This document shows positions 20,199-63,696 of a stretch of DNA of 64,000 bases, piece by piece. The first letter of the stretch is position 1; every line of letters begins with the position of its first letter. The notes under the pieces were generated by a model. It searched no databases and was not told the DNA's origin. It was given only the letters and a program-made list of their open reading frames with translations. The stretch is from NCBI GenBank assembly GCA_030426955.1, contig JAUHXS010000002.1, positions 310,001 through 374,000 of the forward strand. Direction: 5' to 3'. The position numbers and the translations under genes were made by a program. Source of the DNA: Bacteroidia bacterium (GTDB taxonomy: Bacteria > Bacteroidota > Bacteroidia > Chitinophagales > JAUHXS01).

Positions 20199-23100
20199 TT
20201 ACTTGATTAGTAAAAAATTCCCTTGTTTTTCTAAATTGCTCCCCTCTATCCCAGTAGCTTTAACAAGATAAAGATAAGCTCCAATTTCCTGAAGTTTTTT
20301 TAGATAATAGCCATTCCAGCCTGAGAGGCCGTCAGGAGATGTATTGTATTCTTCATGAAGTACTTGCCCCCACCTATTATATACTATAAATACTTCAACA
20401 GTGGCAATATCACTCATTATAGGCAAAAATAAGTCATTTCTTCCGTCTCCATCTGGGCTAAAAGCTTTAGGGGCTTCGAGTAGTGGAGAACAATCTCTTA
20501 TTGTAATGTTTATGCTATCACTGCTTTTGCAGCTTTCTAAGATTGCTTCAACAAAGTAAAGTCCAGAATCACTTACCAAGAAAGTAGCATCAGTAGAATT
20601 ATCTTGCCAAAGATAGGTAGCGCCTGAAACTGAAGCGTCAAGCAAAACAGTCTCATCTTTGCAAACAAAAGTATCAGAGCCAAGGTTAACGTTAGGAGAT
20701 GGTTTAAAAGAGACATTTAAAGAATCAAAGCTAAAACAGAAACCTAAATCACCTTCTCCTCTTAACCAGTAAACTCCAGTATCGGATATAAAAATGGACG
20801 TTGTTGTATCATTATTCGACCATAATAAGTTAAAGTTACCAGAGCTAACAGCCTCCAAAATTATAGAGTCTCCAACACACAAGCTAGAATCACCAGTGAT
20901 AAAAACATTAGGAAAAGAATCAATAATAATATTAACCGAATCAGATATTTCACAAAATGCATTAGTAACGGTTGCCCAATATTGTCCAGACTCATCAACC
21001 TTAATCGTCGGAGAAATAGCCCCATTTGACCAGCCAACAGAGAATGCCCCTAAATTAAAGGTTTGAAGTGTAGTGCCTGTATCTGAACAAATAGAAGTAT
21101 CATTGGGAAGAGAAAAATCTATTGGAAGCGGAATTACATTAATATCAAAAGTATCGATATCAAAGCAGAGACCATCTGTATCATACCCCTTTACAATGTA
21201 AGTTGTTGTGTCTAGCGCAAAAATAAGCGGTATTGGACAGTCATCACAACTGATTCCAACACTAGGTGTCCATTCATAACTTACCGCTCCGCTTGCCCCT
21301 AGAGATATTGTATCAAACATACAAATAGTAGAATCAGCAATAGGTGTAATGCTGGGAATGCCTCTAATTATAATAGTTTGAGTAGAAGAGTCAAGACAAG
21401 TACCTGATCCATTAAATTGGCTTACTATTAAAGTAACCTCAAAAGTATCAGCTTGAGGATATAAATATCCTGAAGAAGCTAAGTTAGAAGTATCTGATAA
21501 GGTGGAAGTATCACCAAAGTTCCAGAAATATGTTGCATTATTTGCCTCAATATCTACTTCAAACATGGTAGAATCACCAAAGCAAAGTCCTTGCTCATCA
21601 ATCAAAGAGAATTCAGCAGCAGGAGAAAAGTTAAGATCAATGATAGAAAACCAAAAATCCCAAGAGCCTATCAGTGGTCCCGTTTTATTAAACCCTGCCT
21701 CATTTTGGGAGGATATTACCAGTGCATATTTACCATCAGCTGTATTTATGATATATCCATTTTCATCATTAGCATCACTAGGAATGCCACCAGATCCTGT
21801 AGTTTTATCACCAATAATCATTCCATTTTCATCAAGCCAAATAGACCAAGTACATTCTGACATGCCATTAGGGCTGGGGTCTGTTTTATCACCAGATATA
21901 CCTTCTGTATAAGTATCGCCAGATAATACATACCCTCCACAAGCGGTGTTGGGAATTAATGAATATACCGTTTCGTCTATGCCGTCACCTCCAATAATAT
22001 TACCCCATATCCAGTCGCCATTTTTATCCAGCTTAATGATCCAAAAATCTGAATTGCCTCGCGATCCGAATCCATCTAAGTCATTTGCTATAGAGACATT
22101 ACCGTCGGAGGATGAGGTGTTGCATGCGATGATAATATTACTATCTTCATCCTCGATAAAGGGGTTGTATCCATGAGTTGCAACGGCTCCAAAAATGTTT
22201 AAAAAAACACCACCATCCGATCCAGATCCACCAAGTGCATTTTGCCATTCTAGTATTCCATTTTTATTAAGTTTTACTACCCATAGGTCATTGTTTTTGA
22301 GTGAGCTACTAAATGCACCTCCCGTTCCGACGTGCCATCCGTCACCGTCTGCATCTGTGCCTGCGTCTACGTCTGCACTTGCTGTATCTGTAATACCTGA
22401 TAAGATATATCCACTATCTATACTTTGCTTGACGGTAAAGCCAGCTTCTTGCCCCACACCACCAAGTGCATTTTGCCATTCAATATTTCCATTAGAATCT
22501 AGTTTTACAACCCAAAGGTCTGAGGTTCGTGCAGCAAAACTGCCAAATCCACCGCCACCAGTATACCCTTCATGCCAACCACTTCCATCTGGGTCTGAAC
22601 CTGTTGTGATATCTCCACCAGTGGTATCTGTGCTTCCAATCAGGATATAGCCTTTGTCAAAGGTTTTATCTATGCCAAATGCCGACTCTCCTCCAGGTCC
22701 ACCAATCGTGTTTTGCCAGTCAATGATTCCATTTTTCAATAATTTAACGACCCACATATCTGAATTGCCATGTGCAATGTTTCCGTCTGGGTCTGTACCC
22801 ACCAAAACATCTCCATCGTTTGAATTTGAACTTCCACATATTACATAACTGCTATCTTTATTTTGAACAGCAAAGTAGCCTTCGTCACCAGATGATCCAC
22901 CCAATGCATTTTGCCATTCGATCATTCCCGTTGAATCGAGTTTGACGACCCACATATCGCCCCCACCGTTGATGCCACTTCCATCTGGGTCAGAAGCAGG
23001 ATTTATATCACCATCATTTGATGAGGTAGAACCGACAAGTAGAAAACCACCATCATTTGTAGTTAAAACGGAATTGATAAGTTCTCCCCCAGTACCACCG

Positions 23101-23204
23101 TATGTCGTATCCCAAAGATATTGTACTTGAGCAGGCAGAATGTTGTAAATACCTATTAATAAGTTAAGAAGGATAAGCTTTTTTAAGACAATACCATTTT
23201 TCAT
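20199..23204 (-). CDS. Large secreted repeat protein with T9SS type B sorting domain
   Basis: A 1001-residue protein with a signal peptide (1-25, ending ILPAQ). About six repeats follow (residues 27-440), each of roughly 65-85 residues with DMWVVKLDSTGMIEWQNALG-like and GGDxDEG-like segments and acidic DPDGSG loops. Then comes a PKD-like domain (ATYFWNFGDTSTLSDTSN near 560) and several Ig-like repeats (SYEWTPS, TYLWQDNSTDATFLVSDSG). The C-terminal sorting domain runs from APKAFSPDGDGRNDLFLP (about 915) to NFLLIK. It is presumed to be exported by T9SS to the surface. The gene is divergent, 104 bp apart, from the 504-aa protein at 23309. Confidence 0.88.
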   Translation of the reverse strand: MKNGIVLKKLILLNLLIGIYNILPAQVQYLWDTTYGGTGGELINSVLTTNDGGFLLVGSTSSNDGDINPASDPDGSGINGGGDMWVVKLDSTGMIEWQNALGGSSGDEGYFAVQNKDSSYVICGSSNSNDGDVLVGTDPDGNIAHGNSDMWVVKLLKNGIIDWQNTIGGPGGESAFGIDKTFDKGYILIGSTDTTGGDITTGSDPDGSGWHEGYTGGGGFGSFAARTSDLWVVKLDSNGNIEWQNALGGVGQEAGFTVKQSIDSGYILSGITDTASADVDAGTDADGDGWHVGTGGAFSSSLKNNDLWVVKLNKNGILEWQNALGGSGSDGGVFLNIFGAVATHGYNPFIEDEDSNIIIACNTSSSDGNVSIANDLDGFGSRGNSDFWIIKLDKNGDWIWGNIIGGDGIDETVYSLIPNTACGGYVLSGDTYTEGISGDKTDPSPNGMSECTWSIWLDENGMIIGDKTTGSGGIPSDANDENGYIINTADGKYALVISSQNEAGFNKTGPLIGSWDFWFSIIDLNFSPAAEFSLIDEQGLCFGDSTMFEVDIEANNATYFWNFGDTSTLSDTSNLASSGYLYPQADTFEVTLIVSQFNGSGTCLDSSTQTIIIRGIPSITPIADSTICMFDTISLGASGAVSYEWTPSVGISCDDCPIPLIFALDTTTYIVKGYDTDGLCFDIDTFDINVIPLPIDFSLPNDTSICSDTGTTLQTFNLGAFSVGWSNGAISPTIKVDESGQYWATVTNAFCEISDSVNIIIDSFPNVFITGDSSLCVGDSIILEAVSSGNFNLLWSNNDTTTSIFISDTGVYWLRGEGDLGFCFSFDSLNVSFKPSPNVNLGSDTFVCKDETVLLDASVSGATYLWQDNSTDATFLVSDSGLYFVEAILESCKSSDSINITIRDCSPLLEAPKAFSPDGDGRNDLFLPIMSDIATVEVFIVYNRWGQVLHEEYNTSPDGLSGWNGYYLKKLQEIGAYLYLVKATGIEGSNLEKQGNFLLIK

Positions 23205-23308
23205 AATAATGTTATTTAGTATAACTATTTATAAAAATAGCCAATATTCAATTAAAAGTTTTTTCGTAGTTTGTTAAAAATAAGGAATCAAAACGTGCTT
23301 TTTATATA

Positions 23309-24823
23309 ATGAAGACCCCCTCTACTGAACTTTTCGATTTGATTAAATCCATGTCTAGGAATGAAAAAGGATACTTTAAAAAGTACTGTGCGAGGCATTT
23401 AGGAGAGAAGAATAATAATGCTCTTTTGTTTGATGCTATTGATAATCAGAAGGAATATTATGAGCTGGACATTGTCAAAAAGTTTAAAAAAACCAACATT
23501 GCAAAGAAATTTTCTGTCTATAAAGGATTTTTACACAAGACTCTATTAGAAAGCCTGAGGTCTTATTATTCCGAAAGATCGATTGATTTGGAGATATATG
23601 AGCAGTTGCAATACGTCATTATCCTTTTTAATAAAGGTTTTTATAAAACCTGTTTAAAATCTTTAAAGAAGTTAAAAACAAAAGCCGAAAAGTACGAGCT
23701 ATATGAATTAAATCTTGAGATCTTAAGGTGGGAGAGCATTGTCACATCATACTTGCCTGAAGCACTAACATTAAAAACCACAGATAAAAGAGCTGAAAAT
23801 ATTAAAAAAATTGAACAGCTAAATGAATATGAAAAGCTAAGAACCAAGCTCGTTTTAATCGTTCTCAAGCAATTTCAGAGCAAAAATAAGCAAAGCAAAG
23901 AAGATGTCAACCATATCTTGAAGCAGTTGCATCGTCAGTTTGAGCTGTTACCCCTTAGAATAAAGATTGCTTCATTAAATGCACAAAACATTGCAACTAG
24001 ATTTTTAAATGAAGAATCAAAAGCATACGAATTAAACATCCAAGCAAAAATGCTTTTTGAAAAGAATGAAGCTTATTTAAAAGAATTCCCTCTTCTATAT
24101 GCAAGTGTTGTAACGAATTTAGTTTCTACTTGCTTGCTTCAGAACAAAGCATTGGAGGCCAAAAAGCATACAACTGTCTTTAATACATTTTACAACAAAT
24201 TTGAAAACACTAAAAAAATCAATTCTTTTCAGTTAAGTTATTCATTAACAGTAATTAATACTCAGGTTGTTAATATGCTTTGTGGGCAAGGTGCTTTTGA
24301 TGAATTGGAAGACATGATCTCTGTAGTAGAGACAAACGGTTCTTTATTTCAAGGTACGATAAGTAAAGCGGGTGCTGTAATAATGGCGTATATAATGGCA
24401 AAAGCTAATTTCTATAAAGGAGATTATTCTCAGGCATTAACCTATATTGATCAAGTAGTTAAATTTTCAGATATACGATTGGATATTCAACACTCGGCAA
24501 GATTGCTAGAGGTAATTACGCATTATGAGCTTGAAAATGGGCTGTATTTAGAGCACTTGATTAGAAATTCTAAAAGATTTTTTAAACAGAGAAACCTATT
24601 AACACCTCTTGATAATGCTATTTTTCAGTTCTTTAAAAAAAATATTCTCAAAGTGGACAAACGAGCGGAGAAAAAGGCACTAGGGGAGTTAAGTGCGGCT
24701 ATAGAAGATAGTACAAATAAAGAGTATGTTGAGCAATTTGATTTTGATCTTTACACTTGGGTTCAAAGTAAACATCAATCGATTTCTTTCAGGGATGCTC
24801 TGCAAAAGTCAAACAAGAAATAG
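23309..24823 (+). CDS. Uncharacterised helical-repeat protein (paralogue of the gene at 62167)
   Basis: A 504-residue Lys-rich, all-helical protein without signal peptide or membrane helix, so probably cytoplasmic. The N-terminal block has LIKSMSRNEKGYFKKY (11-26), then LFDAI, IAKKF and LLESLRSYYSE (near 80-90). The remainder looks like irregular TPR-type helical pairs (GDYSQALTYIDQVV near 375). The 509-residue protein at 62167 is a full-length relative with the same motifs in the same order. Both genes are divergent from T9SS type B cargo genes. I know of no assigned function; a regulatory or chaperone-like link to the neighbouring cargo is only an inference. Confidence 0.8.
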   Translation: MKTPSTELFDLIKSMSRNEKGYFKKYCARHLGEKNNNALLFDAIDNQKEYYELDIVKKFKKTNIAKKFSVYKGFLHKTLLESLRSYYSERSIDLEIYEQLQYVIILFNKGFYKTCLKSLKKLKTKAEKYELYELNLEILRWESIVTSYLPEALTLKTTDKRAENIKKIEQLNEYEKLRTKLVLIVLKQFQSKNKQSKEDVNHILKQLHRQFELLPLRIKIASLNAQNIATRFLNEESKAYELNIQAKMLFEKNEAYLKEFPLLYASVVTNLVSTCLLQNKALEAKKHTTVFNTFYNKFENTKKINSFQLSYSLTVINTQVVNMLCGQGAFDELEDMISVVETNGSLFQGTISKAGAVIMAYIMAKANFYKGDYSQALTYIDQVVKFSDIRLDIQHSARLLEVITHYELENGLYLEHLIRNSKRFFKQRNLLTPLDNAIFQFFKKNILKVDKRAEKKALGELSAAIEDSTNKEYVEQFDFDLYTWVQSKHQSISFRDALQKSNKK

Positions 24824-58812: not shown

Positions 58813-60009
58813 TTACAATCCAACTCTATTATCAAAAATAGTTAAAAAATGGTTTAGAACAATCCCCCAGTTTCGGATTGGCATAGACCATTTTTTAGTT
58901 TCCTCCAGCATAGCAAGGTAAACAGACTTCATTACCGCCTCATCAGTGGGGAATGAAAGTTTATTTTTGGTGTATTTTCTGATTTTACCATTGAGGTTTT
59001 CAATCAGATTCGTAGTGTAAATAATTTTCCTGATTTCTAAAGGAAACTCAAAAAATACCGTTAGTTCCTCCCAGTTGTTTTGCCAGCTTTTAATAGCATA
59101 TCCATACTTATCTTCCCACTTGGAAGCAAAATCAACTAATGCAGCTTCAGCAGCCTTTTTAGTAGGTGCATTATAGATTTCTTTCATGTCTCTAGTAAAA
59201 GCTTTCTTATCTTTCCATACTACATATCTACAAGCATTTCTAATTTGATGAACAATACAGATTTGTGTTTTAGATTGAGGAAAAACATTGCTGATGGTAT
59301 CCGTAAATCCATTTAAGTTATCCGTAGCAGTAATAAGAATATCTTCCACTCCTCTTGCTTTCATATCGGTCAATACACTCAACCAAAAGCTGGCAGATTC
59401 ATTTTTACCTAACCATAACCCTAATACTTCTTTTTTACCATCTCGCTTAAGCCCTACAGCAATATAAATGGTTTTGTTGATGACTTTAGAGTTTTCTCTG
59501 ACCTTAAAGACAATACCATCCATCCAAACAATCAAATAAACGGATTCTAAGGGTCTATTTTGCCAAGCAACTATATCTGCTGTTATTTTGTCTGTTATCT
59601 TCGATATAGTGCTCGTAGAGACTTGAAAGTCATAAATCTCAAGGAGCTGATCTTCTATATCAGCATTGCTAAGCCCTTTGGCATAAAGTGATACAACAAG
59701 GCTTTCTATACCTTTGGATAACTGACTGCGTTTAGGTACAATGACTGGCTCGAAAGAGGCATTCCTATCTCTTGGAACATTAATCTCGGCTTTACCGTGT
59801 TCGGTTTTAATTGTCTTTTTTCCAAACCCATTACGTGCATTATCAGATTTACTTTGTTCATGCTTGGCATATCCAAGATGGGCATCTATTTCGCCCTCTA
59901 GCATCTTTTCTACACCTCGCTTATAAAGTTCATCTATAAAGTTGCCAAAGTCTTCGGAGTTCTTAAATTGTTTTAGAAAGCCTCCTGATAAAATTTCTTC
60001 TTTCTTCAT
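58813..60009 (-). CDS. IS256-family transposase
   Basis: A 398-residue DDE transposase of the MULE/IS256 type, full length. Acidic catalytic residues lie in [15 protein letters not shown] (near 167) and [13 protein letters not shown] (near 234), and the Glu in [17 protein letters not shown] (near 345). An N-terminal helical DNA-binding part ([19 protein letters not shown]) precedes. With both ends and an open frame the element may still be active. Confidence 0.95.
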
Positions 60010-60109: not shown

Positions 60110-62044
60110 TTAGTTAAAAACAGTAATGGTTCCAATAATATTTCTTTTACTCTCTAGCAATTGGATTTCATACAAATAAACACCTTGGTTTACTTCACGA
60201 TTCCCTGAATTCGCATTCCAATATTCCTTTTTATCGTTTGTTGTAAATATTAGCTTTCCATTCCTGTCAAATACCTTAAATGTTAAGTTTTCATCTGTGT
60301 TTATTGTCGTATGATAGCTGCCATACGATGTATTATAAGCATTCGGAATAAATATAACCTCTTCTTCAGTTATTTCAGTATTAGGAGTATCTTCTTCCTC
60401 AACAACGGTTACAAATATAGAATCTATTGATGAGCAACCCTCGGAACTTGTTATGGTAACATAATATGCAATAAATGAGTTTGGTGTTGTAACAGGCATA
60501 TTACTTGAAGCATCATCTAGAAAATCGCTAGGAAACCATTGGTAGCTATTGGATGCATTTCCAGCATTAAGTATGGCAGATTCGTTTTCACTAATAGTGA
60601 TGCTATCTGGCAGTAAGGATACTGGTAAATCATAAATGATTACTTGTTTCGTTATTGAGAATGTGTCGTTTACATTTGTTATCACAGATAACTGGACATC
60701 ATAAGTGCCGCTGTAGGCATAAATATGTGCTGGAGAGGCAATTGAATCCATCGATCCATCTCCAAAGTCCCATTTTAAAGAAACTACAAAATCTTCTACA
60801 CTGCATAGGTCAAACTCAAAATTTACACTATCACCTATGCAGACATCATTTGAAGTAAAATCAATATCGGGTTGGTTAAACGTCCAGTGAGTTATGTTTG
60901 GAAGGCCTAGTCTTATTTTTGCCCCGTTCAAATAAATAGCATTCTTTTGATAGTTACAAGCAAAGCCACTTGCATTGGGGTTGTGTATTACAGATAATGA
61001 GTCTGAGTTGACAAGGCCTGACCCAGTAAAATAAACTTTTCCGTCTGGAGCGAGCTGAATAGCAGATGGCTTTGTGAGTGTGTCAAGTGTAACTTTTGAG
61101 TTTGCAATCGTTGCAGAGTCTCTTATGCTAATATCGAATTGAAATAATAGATAAGGAGTAGGGGTATAAAAAGTAGATGCATTAGTGATCGCATATAATT
61201 TTTTATCATCAGGAGAAAAAGTTATACCATAGCATCCAATTTCCCCCTGACTAGTTATAAAGTTATTTGAGACAATCGTAGGATTAGAAAGTTTACCAGT
61301 CAATCTATCAAAATCAAATAATTCAAGTGTTCCTGACCCGCTAAACATATTAGACATGGCGATCGTATTTCCATCGGAAGAAGTTGTTAAAGTGCCCATT
61401 CCTTGACTTCTAAAGCGTTTTCCAACTGTTGATATTACAGGGTCAGGGTTAAGTCCATTAGCAGTTAGTAAAAAAACCATAAAAGTGTCGCTAGGATCTG
61501 TAATTGTTGCATGGTCGTGGGTTATGATCCAAATGTCTTTATTATTTTCATGTTTGACAGCCGTTATTTTTTCTTGCGCTCTGTCCCAAATCTTTACATT
61601 TTTTTGAATTACACTTCCTAAGGAGTTGTTTGATAAATCTGCCACTGAATAATTAATTCCTTTAGAGCCTCCTTGAGCATCTAAACTAAAAATGTAAAAG
61701 ATATTATCACTACATGGCTGTTTGACAATTAAGGTTTGTGTCGTAGAAAAACTACTGTTTAGCCCCCAACCGTTTGCCATTGTGAAATGATTTCTATTCC
61801 AAACAGTAGATCCATCAGTATACAACAATAATTCTCCTTTTGAATCACACATAGTAGCAACTCCCTCCTGAGTATTTGTTCGACCGTCATTTATGACAGT
61901 TGGTGATCCATTAGAGAAATCTAGCCCAGCATAATCGCCAAAGTGCCAAATATTATCATATTGGGATAACAAGATAGATGGTATGGCTACAATGATTAGT
62001 ATTATAGTAACTCTAGCGCAAATTGACGTTCTGTTTTTGATCAT
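60110..62044 (-). CDS. Secreted PKD-domain protein with T9SS type B sorting domain
   Basis: A 644-residue protein with a signal peptide (about 1-27, ending ILLSQ). The N-terminal half is a WD40-like propeller of the kind starting YDNIWHFGDYAGLDFSNGSP (about 29-48), often found in T9SS cargo. A PKD domain follows (LKWDFGDGSMDSIASPAHIY near 428), then an Ig-like segment and the type B sorting domain (EEVIFIPNAYNTSYG near 560 to IGTITVFN). Its stop codon is 2 bp from the IS end. It is divergent, 122 bp apart, from the 509-aa protein. Confidence 0.88.
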   Translation of the reverse strand: MIKNRTSICARVTIILIIVAIPSILLSQYDNIWHFGDYAGLDFSNGSPTVINDGRTNTQEGVATMCDSKGELLLYTDGSTVWNRNHFTMANGWGLNSSFSTTQTLIVKQPCSDNIFYIFSLDAQGGSKGINYSVADLSNNSLGSVIQKNVKIWDRAQEKITAVKHENNKDIWIITHDHATITDPSDTFMVFLLTANGLNPDPVISTVGKRFRSQGMGTLTTSSDGNTIAMSNMFSGSGTLELFDFDRLTGKLSNPTIVSNNFITSQGEIGCYGITFSPDDKKLYAITNASTFYTPTPYLLFQFDISIRDSATIANSKVTLDTLTKPSAIQLAPDGKVYFTGSGLVNSDSLSVIHNPNASGFACNYQKNAIYLNGAKIRLGLPNITHWTFNQPDIDFTSNDVCIGDSVNFEFDLCSVEDFVVSLKWDFGDGSMDSIASPAHIYAYSGTYDVQLSVITNVNDTFSITKQVIIYDLPVSLLPDSITISENESAILNAGNASNSYQWFPSDFLDDASSNMPVTTPNSFIAYYVTITSSEGCSSIDSIFVTVVEEEDTPNTEITEEEVIFIPNAYNTSYGSYHTTINTDENLTFKVFDRNGKLIFTTNDKKEYWNANSGNREVNQGVYLYEIQLLESKRNIIGTITVFN

Positions 62045-62166
62045 TTATTTAGGCTTTAAACTGAAATTCCTCAAATTTTGTTAAAAAATCTACTTAAAAT
62101 ATGGCCATAATCACATTTTGATATTTTATTTTTTATATATTTAATATTTGATAATCAGTATATAAT

Positions 62167-63696
62167 ATGGTTGCATCCGATTACTTATTTGAATTGATAA
62201 AATCCTTGACAAAAAATGAAAAAGGATACTTCAAGAAGTATGTTCAGTTGTATAAGGGAAATAATACAACAAACTACATTCAATTGTTTGATGCCATTGA
62301 GCAGCAAAAAGCTTACGATGAAAAAGCCTTAATGCAAAAGTTTCGGGATAAGGTTTTTGCAAAACGTTTTGCAGCTACAAAATCTTACTTATATGAGCTC
62401 CTCTTAAAGTCTTTAAGGAGCTATTATAGTGAAATAAATGTAGAAGTTCAGATAGCGGCAATGATCCACAATATCTTCATTCTATACAAAAAATCGATGT
62501 ATGGTGCTGCAGAGAAATTAATTAAAAGAACAGAAAAGTTGGCGTTAAAGTATGAATTGCATTACGATCTGTTGAAAATATATGAATGGAAATCTAAAAT
62601 ATTAGTAAAAAAACAAAACATAAAGCAACTAAAAGAAGGTGCACCTGATATTATTGACGCTACAAAGAGAATGATTTGCAATATTGAAGAGTTGGCTCAG
62701 GCAAAAGCTTTGACTTTAAACAGTGCTCTTACTAATATTAAATCCACTATATCTAAATCTTCCCAAATAGAATATGAGATGAAAGCTATTTGGGAAAACT
62801 CTAAACTTAAAAGCACAGCTAGCATAAATACTTTTATGGCAAAGTATGTTTTTTTAACGGTTGCTAGCAATTATCAAATATCTATGGGAAATGTAGAAAA
62901 AGCTTATAAGCTCGATAAGGAAAACCTAGAATTGTTTGATGCAAATGTTCATTTTAAAGAAGAACATACCAGGAGTTATATTACAGTGCTCAATAATGTG
63001 CTTACTTCTGTATATTACCTGCACGATGATAAACTACTGACGGTTTATTTGGATAGACTTAAAAAAGTCCCTCAGGAAATAAAAGGAAATCTTTTGGAAG
63101 ATATAGAGTTTGAGGTTTTTCAAAGATACTCCTCAGTTGAACTGAAGCACTTAGTTGATAGTGGACTATTTGACAATAAGTCCCAAAAAATAGTAGCACA
63201 AATAGAAGATAATCTTGAGCGATACGAGTCGATGATTATAACAAGTTTAAAGATGACCTTGCAATACAATATCGCATATTTTTACTTCGGACTTGGTAGT
63301 TTTGAAAGGGCATTAGATTATGTCAATAAAATATTAAATAGTTCTGAAAGTAAGAATCGACAGGATATACATACACTTGCAAGAATACTTAACTTGATGC
63401 TTCATTATGAGTTAGAGCATTATGAATTATTAGAATATGCTATCAAAACAGCAAAGTACTACATAAAGGCAAAATCTAATCTTTTTCAATTTGAAAAGAA
63501 TGCATTAAAACTGTTTAAAGATTTAAATAAGGATAATTCGAAAACGCATATGCTGAGTGTTTTAAATCAATATATTGACAACAATAAAAGTGTTCGTGAT
63601 CAGCTGGAAATATTTAAGTCTTTGGATATAAGATCATGGGCAATAGCTAAAGTCGAAAACAAGACTTTGGGTGAAGCGGTCCAGAAAAATCTTTAA
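62167..63696 (+). CDS. Uncharacterised helical-repeat protein (paralogue of the gene at 23309)
   Basis: A 509-residue Lys-rich helical protein without signal peptide or membrane helix. It shares the motifs LIKSLTKNEKGYFKKY (10-25), LFDAI, FAKRF, LLKSLRSYYSE (near 79-89) and a C-terminal DIHTLARILNLMLHYELEHY (near 410) with the 504-aa protein at 23309, so the likeness spans the whole length. TPR-like helices (GSFERALDYVNKIL near 385) are visible. Its neighbour on the other strand is a T9SS type B cargo, as for the paralogue. Function unknown; a cytoplasmic role linked to the cargo is a guess from context. Confidence 0.8.
   Translation: MVASDYLFELIKSLTKNEKGYFKKYVQLYKGNNTTNYIQLFDAIEQQKAYDEKALMQKFRDKVFAKRFAATKSYLYELLLKSLRSYYSEINVEVQIAAMIHNIFILYKKSMYGAAEKLIKRTEKLALKYELHYDLLKIYEWKSKILVKKQNIKQLKEGAPDIIDATKRMICNIEELAQAKALTLNSALTNIKSTISKSSQIEYEMKAIWENSKLKSTASINTFMAKYVFLTVASNYQISMGNVEKAYKLDKENLELFDANVHFKEEHTRSYITVLNNVLTSVYYLHDDKLLTVYLDRLKKVPQEIKGNLLEDIEFEVFQRYSSVELKHLVDSGLFDNKSQKIVAQIEDNLERYESMIITSLKMTLQYNIAYFYFGLGSFERALDYVNKILNSSESKNRQDIHTLARILNLMLHYELEHYELLEYAIKTAKYYIKAKSNLFQFEKNALKLFKDLNKDNSKTHMLSVLNQYIDNNKSVRDQLEIFKSLDIRSWAIAKVENKTLGEAVQKNL

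Follow-up and report, generated by a model that had tools for sequence, protein, structure and literature searches.

A protein family linked to type IX secretion cargo genes and related to RusR: candidate local regulators in Bacteroidota and Ignavibacteria

Introduction

Regulation connected with type IX secretion (T9SS) is known from PorX/PorY/SigP, a two-component system and a sigma factor that act on the whole secretion machinery, and we know of no cargo-specific T9SS regulators. Regulators of the RRNPP group, among them Rap and NprR, are laid out as a small N-terminal domain followed by a TPR sensor. BT2802 of Bacteroides thetaiotaomicron is RusR, a regulator of ribose scavenging whose own expression is unchanged by ribose and which regulates its neighbouring locus (PMC12596196). 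Our search of the literature, in which subscription journals were mostly outside reach, found this work on RusR and nothing on related genes beside T9SS cargo or leuA.

Here, we report on a family that we have named LIKS, which holds the two helical proteins encoded in a window of 64,000 nucleotides from a Bacteroidia bacterium (contig JAUHXS010000002.1, positions 310,001 to 374,000). The two window proteins are homologous to RusR from end to end by profile (NF058569), but RusR is tied to a sugar-uptake locus, whereas the LIKS genes of the host genome adjoin T9SS cargo genes and amount to some 48 in one genome. With Rap and NprR they share the layout of a small N-terminal domain and a TPR sensor, and the solenoid fits; in the LIKS N-terminal domain, however, no helix-turn-helix was recognised, and sequence searches gave no significant match. 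While PorX/PorY/SigP serves the whole machinery, each LIKS protein would serve one cargo locus.

Results

Two divergent pairs in the window

The features of both pairs are collected in Table 1. The initial annotation had placed a type B cargo gene and a gene for a helical-repeat protein head to head; coordinates, lengths and strands proved correct, with start codons 104 bp apart, and the divergent arrangement is indeed repeated at 60110-63696, where the start codons are separated by 122 bp. The second pair had been described as full-length paralogues of the first, which applies to the LIKS copies (29% identity over 522 columns) and not to the cargo proteins, which share modules only: their alignment covers about 160 residues of PKD/Ig modules, and the sorting domain aligns weakly. 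The Pfam profile CHU_C scored 36.2 bits in cargo 1 and 31.6 bits in cargo 2, both above the cut-off of 27, and TIGR04131 matched with E 1.1e-8 and 8.9e-8 (35.1 and 32.2 bits, cut-off 35, which the cargo 2 score reaches when counted together with neighbours in frame). The T9SS translocon is present in the host genome, as seen from a SprA_N match (E 1.9e-161). Upon inspection of the sequences, a signal peptide was not evident on either LIKS copy.

Table 1. Features of the two divergent pairs and their flanks (window positions).
Feature	Coordinates	Strand	Basis and remarks
Second T9SS type B cargo, 831 aa	17603..20098	-	ORF, profiles; FG-GAP repeats
T9SS type B cargo 1, 1001 aa	20199..23204	-	ORF; signal peptide, propeller-like repeats, PKD/Ig domains, CHU_C sorting domain
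Pair 1 divergent intergenic control region, 104 bp	23205..23308	.	Without direct-repeat pair
LIKS copy 1, 504 aa, predicted local regulator	23309..24823	+	ORF; NF058569 profile; AlphaFold2 model; conserved basic helical N-terminal domain (about residues 1-90/128), then TPR-like solenoid
398-aa gene	58813..60009	-	
T9SS type B cargo 2, 644 aa	60110..62044	-	Propeller-like N-terminal half, PKD/Ig, sorting domain
Pair 2 divergent intergenic control region, 122 bp	62045..62166	.	Weak direct repeat
LIKS copy 2, 509 aa	62167..63696	+	ORF; NF058569 profile

The 831-aa cargo gene lies 100 bp downstream of the 1001-aa cargo gene on the same strand, and the two are probably co-transcribed. Also 100 bp downstream, in this case of cargo 2, sits the 398-aa gene, whose product may be an IS256-type transposase. 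A 398-aa frame adjoins the LIKS locus of L043 as well and may be a further copy of this gene.

A family that includes RusR

The helical protein had been presented as belonging to a family of no described function, which was not quite right. The profile NF058569, named BT2802 family ribose utilization protein, spans both window proteins, aligning residues 5-497 of copy 1 with profile positions 4-501 of 502 (E 4.5e-28, 98.5 bits) and residues 1-503 of copy 2 with positions 1-500 of 502 (E 1.1e-43, 150 bits), each below the curated cut-off of 550 bits. Judged by these profile matches, the window proteins are members of the homologous superfamily of BT2802/RusR and not RusR orthologues, and LIKS as a whole is, on sequence evidence, a Bacteroidota/Ignavibacteria family that includes RusR. 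Sequence searches with the helical protein returned generic TPR matches only, from PDB as well as from Pfam, those from Pfam being sub-threshold. Nor did a housekeeping family emerge: no Pfam family was matched above threshold, and LIKS was found in 32 of 118 near-complete genomes sampled from the phylum, mostly as a single copy.

The host genome departs from this single-copy pattern. A profile made from LIKS copies 1 and 2 found about 48 members of the family in its 3.41 Mb; this is the whole-genome figure, and neighbours were classified for the 46 copies in the genome regions examined. Two copies beyond these 46 (L219 and L220) are also divergent from cargo. The host copies are old and deeply diverged in the tree, and another genome of the same order (G001) has 14 copies. 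The host also has a very large secreted repertoire, with at least 150 type B sorting-domain matches in 3.4 Mb. Ignavibacteria loci L076, L084, L089, L105, L106 and L110 carry two tandem LIKS genes, which in many cases share a few bases and are followed by a gene of about 144 aa; this arrangement possibly encodes a heteromeric regulator.

The AlphaFold2 model of LIKS copy 1 is all-helical and confident (pLDDT 89.3, pTM 0.84), with residues from about 130 to 504 forming a TPR-like solenoid. The best structural matches of the solenoid are Rap, with Z 20.4 and an rmsd of 5.4 over 305 residues, eukaryotic LGN (Z 19.5, nearly as high as Rap), NprR, with Z 18.0 and an rmsd of 4.9 over 297 residues, and MalT domain III (Z 16.9), TPR repeats being broad in what they match. 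Residues 1-130 modelled alone gave a pLDDT of 89.1. Among the PDB matches listed for this N-terminal domain alone (best Z 4.1), none was a DNA-binding fold, and its matches to the DnaG C-terminal domain, pyrin-like domains and PWI (Z at most 4.1) were rejected as noise. Conservation within LIKS is highest in the N-terminal domain, whose net charge is +6 per 100 aa compared to +1.8 for the rest of the protein; such a conserved basic domain may contact nucleic acid.

Linkage to T9SS cargo

Type B cargo was found in divergent orientation within 450 bp of 16 of the 46 host copies, compared to 0.66 expected from random placement. This is an excess of about 24-fold, and random placement never gave more than five such neighbours in 1000 trials. 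When type A and type B cargo were counted together with a more sensitive sorting-domain profile, the upstream neighbour was cargo for 38/46 copies (29 divergent and nine more with co-directional cargo immediately upstream) against 46/302 background genes (15%; Fisher p 1e-19).

Outside the host, we used 80 Bacteroidota and Ignavibacteria loci chosen via the single peptide motif EKGYFKK, with neighbour genes called as longest open frames; the upstream neighbour was cargo, mostly type A, in 44/81 cases compared to 47/668 in the background. An independent Pfam count on the external loci gave a type A sorting domain in 39/66 divergent neighbours and in 6/64 length-matched control genes from the same loci. 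The link between LIKS and secreted surface proteins suspected in the initial annotation is thus real and extends to other genomes. It concerns T9SS cargo in general and not type B alone, most of the linked cargo outside the host being type A. The presence of T9SS as a phylogenetic profile for LIKS was uninformative, because SprA was found in 28/28 genomes with LIKS but also in 42/60 without.

A clade beside leuA

Among the LIKS copies of the phylum sample, 23/39 are divergent from leuA, confirmed as 2-isopropylmalate synthase. These form one clade in the tree, with support of 98 against the other named group, and the genome G001 holds a leuA-linked copy together with cargo-linked ones. Single-copy leuA-linked LIKS genes are seen in several Bacteroidota families, examples being L153 (4624-5784) and some 20 more of the loci L152-L189. 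As judged by gene size and order, one flank of the leuA loci in one of these families resembles leuC/leuD and the other ilvD/ilvB/ilvN. The leuA-linked proteins are candidate regulators of branched-chain amino-acid synthesis. leuA itself was not detected in the host genome (assembly 97.4% complete), where leucine may have to be taken up.

Candidate DNA sites

Three ortholog clades carry a direct-repeat pair in which one repeat is intergenic and the other lies at the start of the LIKS gene, at spacings of 66-67, 76-77 or 79/89 bp, the motifs being counted on the same alignments from which they were derived. In a cargo-linked clade, TTAGnRYTYG occurs twice in 14/14 orthologs, with both sites oriented alike and at a distance of 66-67 bp, although the sequence between them varies; the probability of two or more such sites in shuffled regions is 0.0007 per region. 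A TATATTTG box lies between the two sites and a CAAAnnTA box towards the cargo gene. The Bacteroidota -7 consensus is TAnnTTTG, which the two boxes match on the two strands. The intergenic region of L111 has the whole two-site module duplicated in tandem, with spacings of 67, 47 and 67 bp.

The element TTACRAYRYYYAA of the leuA clade is present upstream in 20/24 (at most two mismatches) and at the start codon in 16/24, where conservation of the coding sequence may account for part of the signal; clear pairs are spaced by 67, 79 or 89 bp. The exact element was found once per genome in 9/10 genomes and always at the leuA-LIKS locus. A single occurrence is expected by chance for a 14-mer, and this therefore argues only against a larger regulon with the exact site. 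Its absence from the cargo-linked regions of the host genome is as expected if every clade has its own site. The third clade, from Ignavibacteria, has AAGTCRAT sites 76-77 bp apart with the second at the start codon. The spacing classes, close to 67, 77-79 and 89 bp, are separated by roughly one turn of the helix, an observation made on three clades.

Across all regions and clusters, a spacing of 67 ranked first of 121 spacings, but with a z of only 3.3, and it was not distinct in the host genome alone. The direct-repeat rule over all regions was modest in the host genome (mean rank 0.388) and near null in the other sets, and we do not claim it for every LIKS copy. No direct-repeat pair was found in the intergenic region of window copy 1 (P 0.63). 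Copy 2 has a weak direct repeat, TTAAAATATGG and ATATAATATGG, 66 bp apart and with the second at the start codon, for which P is 0.033 when only the spacings of the other clades are considered and 0.31 over all spacings.

Discussion

Members of the family adjoin genes for secreted proteins, the gene of a leucine enzyme or, in the case of RusR, a sugar locus; this range fits regulators of local genes, and the family is not specific to secretion. We consider it probable that LIKS proteins are local one-component regulators, the host copies mostly standing beside one cargo locus each. Each would bind short direct repeats in the control region common to its own gene and the adjoining divergent gene, with the second repeat at its own start, and thereby control both genes. 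With less assurance, we suggest that the basic N-terminal domain contacts nucleic acid, presumably DNA, and that the TPR solenoid serves as the sensor of a ligand or peptide, in the manner of the RRNPP regulators. The family has expanded to about 48 copies in the host, most of which would control a single T9SS cargo gene or cargo operon. That the window copies act like the clades with footprinted sites is something we infer, as are the direction of regulation and the ligand.

In three clades the second repeat either overlaps the LIKS start codon or directly adjoins it, a position that could also point to a post-transcriptional or translational regulator, with LIKS binding RNA at two places: the start codon of its own gene and the 5' leader of the partner gene. 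The first repeat, however, lies in the divergent spacer and is read in the opposite orientation for the partner, and spacing classes one helical turn apart suit binding to DNA; we judge control at the RNA level unlikely.

The initial annotation had proposed a regulator, chaperone or secretion-coupling factor, of which the regulator fits. A TPR solenoid that holds pre-cargo in the cytoplasm and passes it to Sec or T9SS would be in keeping with the strong linkage of LIKS to cargo genes, with the frequent peptide binding of TPR domains and with the lack of an evident signal peptide on both window proteins. The entire clade beside leuA, the gene of a cytosolic enzyme, and the control of a ribose locus by RusR in Bacteroides nevertheless make a local regulator of transcription more likely than a chaperone for secretion. 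A chaperone does not predict conserved paired DNA sites either, and the similarities of LIKS and cargo sequences are uncorrelated (Mantel r -0.07, p 0.82), so that no joint duplication of the pairs is visible, although the divergence is deep enough to hide such a signal. A role in chaperoning or coupling is accordingly very unlikely in our view. It is about as improbable that LIKS genes are passengers of variable regions rich in surface genes, where two abundant families would meet: cargo is very numerous in the host (at least 150 sorting-domain matches) and the downstream neighbour is cargo for 18/46 copies, but the excess at the divergent position over random placement is about 24-fold, the linkage recurs in genomes with few cargo genes nearby (47/668), leuA substitutes for cargo in one clade and the control sites are conserved.

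Beyond local regulation as such, we tentatively suggest that LIKS may represent a new class of one-component regulators, in which an unrecognised nucleic-acid-binding helical domain is joined to an RRNPP-like TPR sensor, paired direct-repeat operators are spaced in helical phase, and regulators have multiplied in some Bacteroidota at one per cargo. This broader proposal is possible rather than probable.

If LIKS proteins are local regulators, RusR would fall within a large regulator family, and a regulator of leucine biosynthesis is predicted for several families of Bacteroidota. The predicted operator pairs are directly testable in culturable species. T9SS cargo can amount to well over 100 genes per genome, and a phylum-wide family of regulators encoded beside them would give a handle on the timing of each protein; in some Bacteroidota, dozens of exported surface proteins might then be individually switchable by one cell.
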